From Bacillaceae bacterium (GTDB lineage: Bacteria > Bacillota > Bacilli > JACDOE01): a stretch of DNA of 64,000 nucleotides. Positions 12,163-16,050 of the stretch are shown one piece after another (the stretch's first letter is position 1; each line of letters starts with the position of its first letter). The DNA lies in NCBI GenBank assembly GCA_017656255.1, contig JACDOE010000001.1, positions 1 to 64,000 of the forward strand. The letters run 5' to 3'. The notes below the pieces were generated by a model, which was given only the letters and a program-made list of their open reading frames with translations, was not told the DNA's origin and did not search any database. The position numbers were made by a program, and so were the translations under genes.

Positions 12163-13503
12163 CTAATATAAAAAGAATATTAGAATACTGGTTATAGTTC
12201 CAACCCATAGACTGAGTAAGATACAATATCCCATGATGTCACGAATATGAAGTCCAACGACACTTAAAATGGGCAGCGCCCAGAATGGTTGGATAAGGTT
12301 AGTCCATGCATCTCCCCATCCAACAGCCATTGCCGTCAAGCCAGGATCTACCCCCAGATTTAGAGCTGCTGGAATCTGCAGAGGTCCCTGTAGGGCCCAT
12401 TGCCCTCCTCCAGACGGTGCCAGAATGTTTACAAGACCTGCTGACCAATATGTAAATACATGAAAGGTTTCAGTGGAGGCAATCGAACTCATCCAGTTAA
12501 TAATCGATGCTCCGAGACCGGAGCTTCCCAGAACAGCAATGATCCCCGCATAAAATGGAAATTGGAGGATGATTGGTGAAATGGATCTGGCGGCATTTTT
12601 AAATGCATCTGCAAACCTTCCTAAAGATTGATGGAGTAAAAGGCCTAACGAAAAAAACAGCAAGTTAATAATGTTAAGATCTAATCCATGTCCATTCATA
12701 AATTCATAAATGACATAAATTAAACCCACCGCTCCAATTACTGAACCAAGCAAAGGTGTAAATTCAAGCTTCTGAGCGGGCGTCAATGGCTCCTCTAATG
12801 TGGCGGAATGTTCAGAAATCCCATCGTTCTCTGTCTCTGTCTTTGTCATATTTAGAGGCCTGTAGCTTTTTATATCTTTTTTGGGTGCCATTAAAACAAT
12901 AAAAATTGGGATTGTAACGACTAATGCGAGGAAGATTGTGATAGTACCAGGATGAAAAATTGTCGCTGAAGTCGGAATGGCCCCCATTTGCTCAACTAAA
13001 AAATGATCACGGGTTGCAATTGTAAGCCCAATTGAGCTTGAAAGCCCAGCAGTATAAAGAACAGTTGGTGTATAAGCAGCTGCGACAAGGAGTGGGAAGT
13101 GTGCATCTTCGTTTCTTTTTCCTACCTCTCTTGCAACAATCGCTCCCACAATAACAGCTAATCCCCAGTTAATGTAATAAGCTAATGATGAAATAAGAAA
13201 TGTCAATACATACGCTTGATTTGGACTCTTTGCCAATCCCGCTAAAGATTGAAGACCTCTATTGATGAAAGGCACCGAAGCCAACACCATACCTGTCATC
13301 AATAGCAAGACCATTTGCATGGTAAATCCAATATAAACCCAGAACCCATCTCCCCACGACTTAATCATCCCCATTGTATGAGAAGGGTTCATTAAAATGG
13401 CTACAACTAATACAAAAATTGTCATAAGTACCGCAATCACAAATGAATCAGGCAAATAGCGACGAACACCGTTAGAGAAAGTATCTGCTATTTTTGTAAA
13501 CAT
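12163..13503 (-). CDS. atoE: Short-chain fatty acid transporter, AtoE family
   Basis: The 446-residue protein has about 11-12 membrane helices and matches the AtoE short-chain fatty acid permease family; DSFVIAVLMTIF, the SWGDGFW motif, SSLAYYINWGLAVIVGA and APSGGGQWALQGP are characteristic. It would import short-chain carboxylates such as acetoacetate or butyrate. Codon choice is visibly more AT-rich than in neighbouring genes, suggesting acquisition from elsewhere. It lies 283 bp downstream of the DUF4387/AtuA pair on the same strand, with a dispersed repeat between, so a shared pathway is plausible though co-transcription is uncertain. Confidence 0.85.
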   Translation of the reverse strand: MFTKIADTFSNGVRRYLPDSFVIAVLMTIFVLVVAILMNPSHTMGMIKSWGDGFWVYIGFTMQMVLLLMTGMVLASVPFINRGLQSLAGLAKSPNQAYVLTFLISSLAYYINWGLAVIVGAIVAREVGKRNEDAHFPLLVAAAYTPTVLYTAGLSSSIGLTIATRDHFLVEQMGAIPTSATIFHPGTITIFLALVVTIPIFIVLMAPKKDIKSYRPLNMTKTETENDGISEHSATLEEPLTPAQKLEFTPLLGSVIGAVGLIYVIYEFMNGHGLDLNIINLLFFSLGLLLHQSLGRFADAFKNAARSISPIILQFPFYAGIIAVLGSSGLGASIINWMSSIASTETFHVFTYWSAGLVNILAPSGGGQWALQGPLQIPAALNLGVDPGLTAMAVGWGDAWTNLIQPFWALPILSVVGLHIRDIMGYCILLSLWVGTITSILIFFLY

Positions 13504-13687
13504 CTAATTCCCCCTTTAAATGGAATAAAAATGAAGTTTATTAAATAGTGATAATATTCTATCATTTGCCTTGAAATCATAACTATTGTCCACAATTCAA
13601 CAATTTTACTTTTATTTTTATGACAACATGTACAAAAATGATGAGTCCCAATTGTCATGGCGATGGTTCATGTTGATGGCGAAATAG

Positions 13688-13766
13688 TATAGCGGAAAAA
13701 ATTTGCTATTCTCAAAAAAACGCCCACAAAATGAAAAATAGCGGAAGCAAATTTCCGCTATTTTTC
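13688..13766. repeat. Dispersed AT-rich intergenic repeat, copy C
   Basis: A short copy dominated by a perfect 13-bp inverted repeat, aaaaatagcggaa (13734-13746) with ttccgctattttt (13753-13765) and a 6-base loop, preceded by agcggaaaaaatttgctatt. The gaagtat core is absent. It lies between the start of the AtoE gene and the end of the DUF4387 gene. Confidence 0.6.
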
Positions 13767-13786
13767 CCTCGTCACCAGAGACTAAT

Positions 13787-14101
13787 TTATTCAACCTCCA
13801 GCGACAGTAAAGGCGCATGTTGCTGGGCCCCATACGTATCCCGTTCCCCTTCATTTCCCGACGAAACCGGGCGGGTCAGGGTAAACTTTACTGCCAGCGC
13901 CGGATCATACCAGACAAAAGCCACGATCTCCGATACCGCTACACCGTACAGGGCCGCTACCGTTTCCCGGGTCAGCCGTCCACTTTTCTTAACACAGCGA
14001 TATTCATCCTCCGAAGCAAACATAATATCAAACGTGATCTCAAAGGGACCGGCATTTTTACTACGGATCACCCGGGCCACATCTTTCAATGTTGTTGCCA
14101 T
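13787..14101 (-). CDS. DUF4387 protein paired with AtuA-like protein
   Basis: The 104-residue protein (from ATG 14101) matches DUF4387: MATTLKDVARVIRSKNAGPF then EITFDIMF, with VSEIVAFVWYDPALAVKFTL further on. Members almost always follow a DUF1446/AtuA gene and are thought to act with it, but no reaction has been established that I know of. A GTG at 14113 would overlap the upstream stop in a GTGA arrangement. The ATG is preferred because it matches the usual start of family members. The protein is soluble, without a signal peptide. Confidence 0.75.
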   Translation of the reverse strand: MATTLKDVARVIRSKNAGPFEITFDIMFASEDEYRCVKKSGRLTRETVAALYGVAVSEIVAFVWYDPALAVKFTLTRPVSSGNEGERDTYGAQQHAPLLSLEVE

Positions 14102-14109
14102 TGTCGATC

Positions 14110-15477
14110 TCACTCTCCTCGTCCGATCTCGACCATTTTTACGGGAAAAAGCGAAAGCGGATCATCCACCTTCACCGCATGATAAATAGAAAAGGTAAAC
14201 ACCGGCCCGGCGGAAAATTCCGGGGGCGCAAACGGCAGTGCCAGATTTCCCGCTGTGGACACCCGTCCGTCATAATCCTTATGCATCAACGCCGAACGGG
14301 TAAAGGCGCAGATGCTGTCTGCCAGCTCCTGCGTTTCCGCCACCACTTCGAGCACCAGCCCGATTTCATGGGGGAGGGACGTTTCCGTCTCCCGCTCTCC
14401 CATGACCGCATCAACCCCGTATGTTTTAAAATGAAGGCGTGCCTGTCCGGTTCGAACCTCTTCAAAATAGGACGCTGCCTCGTCCTCGACCTGCTTCAGC
14501 AGATCCCGGTGCTGTCGGATGAACCCGGGATCCCGAACCCCGGCGACGAGGACGGAACGATAACCGGCCTGACGGACACCCTCCAGTTTCACCGTTTTCT
14601 CTTTTTCAGGAATAAAACGGCTTCCCGTTACGCGTACCGTACGCTCATCCACCTGTTCAAACCGGCAATCCGTCAAATCCAGTATGCCTCCCGGTCCCGG
14701 AAGGAGGGCAGGATGCGATTTTTCATATAGCGTATGGGCAGCGACGGACTGTGTGGTGCAGATTCGCTTTCCATTCAGGGGGCGAACCAGAAAATGATTG
14801 TCCCGCAAAATACCGATCATCCCGTCACCGGCCGTTGCCGGTCGGGCAGCCAGAGCGCCGCACTCGAGAATTTTACCCATGTGATAGGCGGGACCGGGAT
14901 CCATTCCGTTTTGCAGGGCGAGAGCCGCCGTCATCACCGGGTCGTACGTTCTGCCGCCGATGATAATATCCGGTTCCTGTTTCAACGCTTCCAGATAGGG
15001 TTCGGCACCCATCTGGGCCACGATGACCGATGTCTGATTAATTAACTCTTCCGTCAGAGGCGGGGCTGATCCGATTGAAGACAGATTTCCTCTGCGAAAT
15101 TCTGCCTTCACCCATTCCGGATCCATATCCGAATAGATCAGTGCCACACGTAGAGAGAGGTTTTCTTCTCCGGCGATTTCACGTACGATATCGAGCGTCC
15201 AGTCAACACGCACACCGGCGCCGGACCCGCCGGCGGAGCCGATGATCAAGGGAATCCTTCGCTCGCGTGCTGCGATGATCAGGGGTTTTAAATCCTTTTT
15301 GGTCGCCATGCGGCTGACACCGCCGACACCCAGGCCGAGCCGGTGTGGCCCGCCGTCTGTTGAACCGGCATCTACTGCAATTGCGTGGGGATGACTGGCC
15401 AGCCCGTTTTTTAGAGATTCCATGGGATAACCGTAACCGAGCATGCCCTGGGGTGATAAAATACGAATCTCTTTCAT
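14110..15477 (-). CDS. AtuA-like acyclic terpene utilisation protein (DUF1446)
   Basis: The 455-residue protein matches the DUF1446/AtuA family, first tied to acyclic terpene (citronellol/geraniol) breakdown in Pseudomonas but widespread in other catabolic settings. Features include the N-terminal SPQGMLGYGYP, the AVDAGSTDGGPHRLG segment, IIGSAGGSGAG and IIGGRTYDPVMTAALAL. The catalytic role is not settled. With DUF4387 and a short-chain carboxylate transporter downstream it probably processes an organic acid or its CoA ester; terpene use is not supported here because no geranyl-CoA carboxylase genes are present. ATG 15477 follows AGGAGG by nine bases. Confidence 0.78.
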   Translation of the reverse strand: MKEIRILSPQGMLGYGYPMESLKNGLASHPHAIAVDAGSTDGGPHRLGLGVGGVSRMATKKDLKPLIIAARERRIPLIIGSAGGSGAGVRVDWTLDIVREIAGEENLSLRVALIYSDMDPEWVKAEFRRGNLSSIGSAPPLTEELINQTSVIVAQMGAEPYLEALKQEPDIIIGGRTYDPVMTAALALQNGMDPGPAYHMGKILECGALAARPATAGDGMIGILRDNHFLVRPLNGKRICTTQSVAAHTLYEKSHPALLPGPGGILDLTDCRFEQVDERTVRVTGSRFIPEKEKTVKLEGVRQAGYRSVLVAGVRDPGFIRQHRDLLKQVEDEAASYFEEVRTGQARLHFKTYGVDAVMGERETETSLPHEIGLVLEVVAETQELADSICAFTRSALMHKDYDGRVSTAGNLALPFAPPEFSAGPVFTFSIYHAVKVDDPLSLFPVKMVEIGRGE

Positions 15478-15611
15478 ATCGGACAACCTCCTGTTGCACT
15501 TAACACCTTTGTCTCTTCTTCTTATTCTGGCATAAGGGTATAATAAGGGGAAGAGGTAGAAATTGAATTTTCGGGTTCTCTGGAATTGGTCGTAAAAGGA
15601 GGTTGAAACAG

Positions 15612-15956
15612 ATGAATATCATCGTCACGGAATCCGCCCTTGAAAAGCTGCGTGAGATGGAGATCCCGGAAGGACGGGGTCTGCGGGTTGACGGGGCCCT
15701 CACCGGCGGTTGAGGTACGTTGATTGATTTTCACCTGGCTCTGGATGAGACCAGGCCGACGGACACCGTGATTGAAGTTGAGGGAATTCCCTTTTTTATA
15801 GACCGGTTTACACGGCGTTATCTGGATGATGAACTGACGCTGGATCACCAGCCGGCTCAGGGATTCATTCTTTCCAGTCGGTATGAGATTCTGTCATACG
15901 GATTAACGGTTTACCAGAGTGGCGAGGACGTGCCGCCTCCCGGGTCGTCCTGCTAG
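15612..15956 (+). CDS. Candidate HesB/IscA-like selenoprotein with in-frame UGA
   Basis: A strong ribosome site (AAAAGGAGG) lies nine bases before ATG 15612. The frame runs 33 codons, meets TGA at 15711-15713, then continues without interruption to TAG at 15954-15956, giving 114 residues with Sec at position 34. The sequence around it, LRVDGALTGG-U-GTLIDFHLALD, matches HesB/IscA-like proteins, in which this site is the conserved Cys of a GGC motif. The later IEVEGIPFFIDRF and YLDDELTLDH also fit the fold. A SECIS-like hairpin follows the UGA. HesB-like proteins are, from memory, among known bacterial selenoprotein families. The alternative is a pseudogene. It is divergent from the AtuA gene. 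Confidence 0.75.
15734..15755 (+). promoter_or_regulatory. SECIS-like hairpin downstream of the in-frame UGA
   Basis: CCTGG (15734-15738) pairs with CCAGG (15751-15755). Above a single bulged C (15739), TCT (15740-15742) pairs with AGA (15748-15750), leaving the loop GGATG (15743-15747). The loop starts 29 bases after the UGA, inside the window used by bacterial SECIS elements. It opens with GG, and the bulged pyrimidine resembles the SelB-binding fdhF element. Confidence 0.65.
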
Positions 15957-16010: not shown

Positions 16011-16050
16011 TCCCCCGATCAGCTGACCGACCGGGGGATTCTTTCTTTTC
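16011..16050 (+). terminator. Terminator after the HesB-like gene
   Basis: A 7-bp GC-rich stem (16011-16017 with 16032-16038) with a 14-base loop is followed by a T-rich tract (ttctttctttt). It lies 55 bases after the TAG of the HesB-like frame, supporting that frame as a single transcription unit. Confidence 0.6.

Follow-up and report, generated by a model that had tools for sequence, protein, structure and literature searches.

Evidence from gene anatomy and covariation for a divergent HesB-like selenoprotein in a Bacillaceae bacterium

HesB-like proteins belong to the published bacterial selenoprotein families, as an earlier note on the DNA studied here had stated: 11 were known in 2006 (PMC1794560), 90 in 86 organisms in 2016 (PMC5029168), and in 2026 they appear under TIGR01911 with the motif UxGP (PMC13188914). 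Conversion between selenocysteine (Sec) and Cys is known in the family (PMC1794560). The curated models TIGR01911 (HesB_rel_seleno) and NF038090 (IscA_HesB_Se) describe small PF01521 proteins in which Sec substitutes for the first conserved Cys, encoded with an in-frame UGA and a SECIS element, and all of these features recur in the gene that we analyzed. Two other described systems share its fold. In the A-type iron–sulphur carriers, such as IscA, SufA and ErpA, two C-terminal Cys residues are described as essential for cluster binding (PMC7144353), and PF01521 proteins of Firmicutes whose C-terminal domain is truncated are distinguished from the strict carriers (PMC2682760). PdhI/YneR of Bacillus subtilis is an inhibitor of PDH E1, that is, a HesB-type fold acting on an enzyme (PMC10090944).

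The gene lies in the first 64,000 nt of contig JACDOE010000001.1 of a Bacillaceae bacterium (hereafter the window), at 15612..15956 of the + strand, and comprises 114 codons plus a TAG at 15954-15956. Both the strong ribosome site and the otherwise open frame that had been claimed for it are present: the site AAAGGAGGT (15595..15603, + strand) contains AGGAGG at 15597-15602, with 9 nt between this motif and the ATG at 15612, and the frame 15612-15953 is interrupted only by a TGA at 15711-15713 (+ strand). This TGA is codon 34; in the HesB/IscA fold, its position is that of the first conserved Cys. HesB-like sequence had been proposed on both flanks of the TGA, and indeed residues 1-98 of the read-through product, which span it, match PF01521 (Fe-S_biosyn) with 45.6 bits (E = 9e-12), well above the gathering cut-off of 26.3 bits. 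Under the standard code, all that remains is a 78-aa ORF with a TTG start 3′ of the TGA (15720-15956), in line with the predicted truncation by automatic annotation; since gene finders truncate them, such genes are probably under-annotated. Compared with the nearest relative (L024), the window gene differs at 14/5/23 sites by codon position before the TGA and at 17/7/25 after it. The codon-position bias is therefore intact on either side, which argues that the two halves are constrained as coding sequence in a single frame. Downstream of the gene, at 16011..16038 (+ strand), is a terminator-like hairpin with a stem of 12 pairs. The scan called it on the - strand; the T-rich stretch that follows on the + strand, TTCTTTCTTTT, falls below what the scan demands of a tail.

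Despite the features in common, the window protein falls outside TIGR01911 (14 bits versus a cut-off of 66.35), and it scores 23 bits versus a cut-off of 85 with NF038090. No NCBIfam model reached its cut-off for the window protein or for any of ten homologues tested singly. The motifs differ as well, with GGU-GTL (read as UGTL) in the window protein and UxGP in the TIGR01911 family. In the tree, the group with some UxGP members is the PGUGG clade, which sits on a 100/100 branch that excludes the window gene. The window protein is probably a new HesB-like selenoprotein of the known family, in a divergent GGU-type subfamily that reaches the cut-off of no curated NCBI model.

Homologues were searched in a sample of 399 genomes of the class, judged to be Bacilli from homologues with Bacillaceae names. 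At the family and order levels the searches returned the window's own genome alone, and the nearest relatives therefore belong to different orders within this class. The same column holds a TGA in L024 (58% identity), L025-L027 (51-53%) and L036 and L048 (31-37%). Once the weaker TGA-flagged matches were fetched, 18 further TGA genes were added, from several subfamilies with the motifs PGUGG, GGUSAT and GGUGA, NGUGGG and HGUGGG, and YEUST. A comparison of Cys and UGA at this site, which the earlier note had suggested, thus gave UGA at the residue-34 column in 24 other genes, or 25 with the window gene, and Cys in the remaining aligned homologues. That the TGA is unlikely to have arisen here by chance, as had been argued, is supported both by this shared column and by the constraint on the two halves. 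We omitted L064 and L071 from the TGA set, as their TGA flags are at the 3′ end, past the domain, as well as L031. The latter, from genome G285, is HesB-like and of the Cys type, but a TAA interrupts its frame midway through the domain, and it is probably a pseudogene. A contig search with a tighter alignment found only four Cys homologues (Alteribacillus, Bacillus badius, Amphibacillus and Domibacillus).

Shortly 3′ of the TGA, at 15734..15755 (+ strand), the transcript can form a bacterial SECIS hairpin with a 5′ arm at 15734-15741, a UGGAU loop at 15742-15746 and a 3′ arm at 15747-15755 in which A15750 is bulged. Bacterial SECIS elements are described as having a loop of 3-9 nt, a stem of 4-16 bp, a G within the first two bases of the loop, a distance of 16-37 nt from the UGA and a minimum free energy of at most -7.5 (PMC13188914). 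The window hairpin lies within every one of these limits (a 5-nt loop with G as its second base, a stem of 8 bp, a spacing of 28 nt and -12.4 kcal/mol). Folding of the UGA region as a single sequence was unexceptional relative to shuffled sequences (z = -1.31), and it is the comparative tests that decide. A YUC-UGGAY-GAR hairpin, with pairing arms and with CUGGAYGAR in the reading frame, was found 27-30 nt 3′ of the UGA in all 25 TGA genes, whereas none of the 19 Cys homologues had it (Fisher 7e-13, uncorrected for relatedness). This consensus, common to every Sec homologue found and missing from the Cys homologues, provides a practical handle on the family. Within the alignment, 91.3% of the paired cells were able to pair, versus 84.6% in shuffles (0/500 as high), and pairing was at most 51% in each of the slid registers. 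Similarly, the covariation score was 0.325, versus 0.186 in shuffles (0/500 as high). The most telling pair, columns 8-18, is C-G in 16 distinct rows and U-A in 7, with no mismatch. At the codon level, the synonymous third base of a Glu codon tracks the middle base of an Ala/Thr or Val codon: it is GAG where that codon is GCT or ACT, and GAA where it is GTT. Selection on the protein cannot account for this choice. Furthermore, among 27 codons that specify an identical residue in all five orthologues, namely the window gene and L024-L027 (start codon and UGA codon excluded), only codons 42, 43, 44 and 46 showed no synonymous change, and all four are within the hairpin (Fisher 9e-4).

A search of the genome (98.9% complete) for the Sec machinery, likewise called for in the earlier note, recovered every component named. 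The tRNA-Sec scored 68.8 bits, above the gathering score of 47, and was called as SeC with anticodon tca by ARAGORN. It is adjoined by a gene that we take to be selA from its sequence and its position there, and both selB (379 bits) and selD (411 bits) are present. Two other genes contain in-frame TGAs: selD itself (L023, 9367-10422; SKSGUGC) and fdhA, for the formate dehydrogenase alpha subunit (L089, G000:C9:22083-24101, - strand; CNRTUHAPS), in each case at the Sec site of the respective family. Very probably, then, at least two further genes of this genome are decoded with Sec at a UGA. The selD gene also has a hairpin with GGA in the loop shortly 3′ of its TGA. Divergent from selD lies a gene for a rhodanese-domain protein, presumably the selenouridine synthase MnmH/YbbB.

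The machinery, the UGA and Cys homologues and the covarying SECIS hairpin agree with the original suggestion of a selenoprotein candidate, and the UGA at 15711-15713 is almost certainly read as Sec, judging from anatomy and covariation. In the mechanism that we propose, SelA and SelD would make Sec-tRNA-Sec, and SelB would bind the hairpin at 15734-15755 and deliver it to the UGA. The ribosome would then read through to the TAG at 15954. Taken as a whole, a HesB-like selenoprotein with Sec34, decoded in this way and perhaps acting in thiol or metal handling, is with high probability the best explanation of the locus.

Sec decoding had been expected to be uncommon in such a backbone, and a survey from 2006 listed just three Bacillales selenoproteins (PMC1794560). 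Our data do not bear out this expectation: selB was present in 84 of the 399 genomes (21%), distributed over 60 of 145 genera, in a sample drawn evenly from the class. Among the 22 genomes with UGA-type genes, 21 had selB (Fisher 1e-14 versus 84/399, uncorrected for relatedness). In the other one, G105, selB was not found in the assembly, its best match (190.9 bits) being a protein of 397 aa, the size of EF-Tu, which may reflect an assembly gap or a recent loss of Sec decoding. The SECIS-like hairpins of the UGA-type genes in G105 (L061 and L074) are intact.

In five genomes, the HesB-like gene (L080-L084) is located divergently upstream of one conserved operon, which was matched by similarity and gene order and which we take to be thiL-tsaE-tsaB-rimI-tsaD. 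At this locus, the gene has UGA in L080-L082, where selB is present, and Cys in L083-L084, where selB is absent; one UGA genome and the two with Cys fall in a single family (f20). This syntenic switch is a natural experiment that supports the link between Sec and selB, and the locus offers a second practical handle, as its Sec and Cys orthologues swap with the presence of selB. The best tree requires at least four interchanges of Sec and Cys (bootstrap 3-5), but its weak resolution makes this number uncertain, and there may have been a single origin.

With regard to function, a structure model built from five sequences (mean pLDDT 78; residues 102-114 below 50) gave Foldseek matches to 2qgo, IscA, SufA and YneR (1r94, 1s98, 2d2a, 2qgo and 9a4q_B). 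In the model, Sec34 lies in a loop that joins two long strands, 22-31 and 37-46, and its counterpart in IscA is the first Cys ligand, that of the SGC motif. The position claimed for the TGA, at the conserved Cys of the A-type carriers, was therefore correct, but carrier status did not hold up equally well, as the C-terminal Cys pair of these proteins is absent from the window protein. Its single Cys114 is the last residue, and a single terminal Cys was also seen in L024 and in members of the PGUGG clade. Given the missing pair and the precedent of the truncated Firmicutes domains, we favor a single-Sec protein for thiol or metal handling over a classical carrier. Specifically, and tentatively, we propose an accessory factor with an A-type fold in iron–sulphur or redox metabolism. 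Sec34 would be the reactive or metal-binding group, and Cys114 at the C-terminus might be its partner. Such a partnership would not be general, since several Sec homologues, such as L026, L036 and L048, have no Cys after Sec.

Rather unlikely in comparison, although it accounts for several of the observations, is that the protein works as a classical A-type carrier of the IscA/SufA/ErpA type in which Sec stands in for one of three cluster ligands, the first. The fold is the same, Sec occupies the first-ligand position, and no PF01521 protein other than the window protein was found in its genome. Indeed, a canonical IscA/SufA/ErpA-like protein (72-86 bits), present in most relatives, was not found in the window's own genome (G000), G007 and G048, where the TGA-flagged HesB-like genes are the only PF01521 genes. 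On the other hand, the two C-terminal Cys are absent, with Cys114 alone present, some Sec relatives have no other Cys, and even the best-scoring carrier models stay far under their cut-offs. We consider it improbable that the protein is a regulator of a metabolic enzyme like PdhI/YneR, and not an iron–sulphur protein. Such inhibitors exist within this fold and the YneR chain 9a4q_B is among the matches of the model, but the fold is all that is shared, and the conserved Sec/Cys residue points to chemistry rather than to plain steric inhibition. Beyond the accessory role that we favor, a more far-reaching and doubtful idea is that in the GGU-type subfamily, which supplies the sole PF01521 protein of this genome, Sec is the main or only chalcogen, and that the protein would either replace the canonical carrier or perform other Se-dependent metal chemistry. 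If true, this would be the first defined function for HesB-like selenoproteins.

That the HesB-like gene is instead decaying, with the TGA as a nonsense mutation, can be rejected as refuted for practical purposes: the modest PF01521 score and a location outside the thiL-tsaE context conserved in some relatives would fit decay, but the codon-position bias is kept on both sides of the TGA, no frameshift, extra stop or other second lesion was seen in the window gene, the Sec machinery is in the genome and, decisively, the UGA column is conserved and the hairpin both conserved and covarying.

Across homologues, the neighbors of the window gene gave no functional clue, as none recurred apart from an ABC-transporter similarity. 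In the window itself, genes for an AtuA-family protein, a DUF4387 protein and a short-chain fatty acid transporter follow each other at 12163-15486 on the - strand, an apparent catabolic operon beside the HesB-like gene and on the opposite strand.
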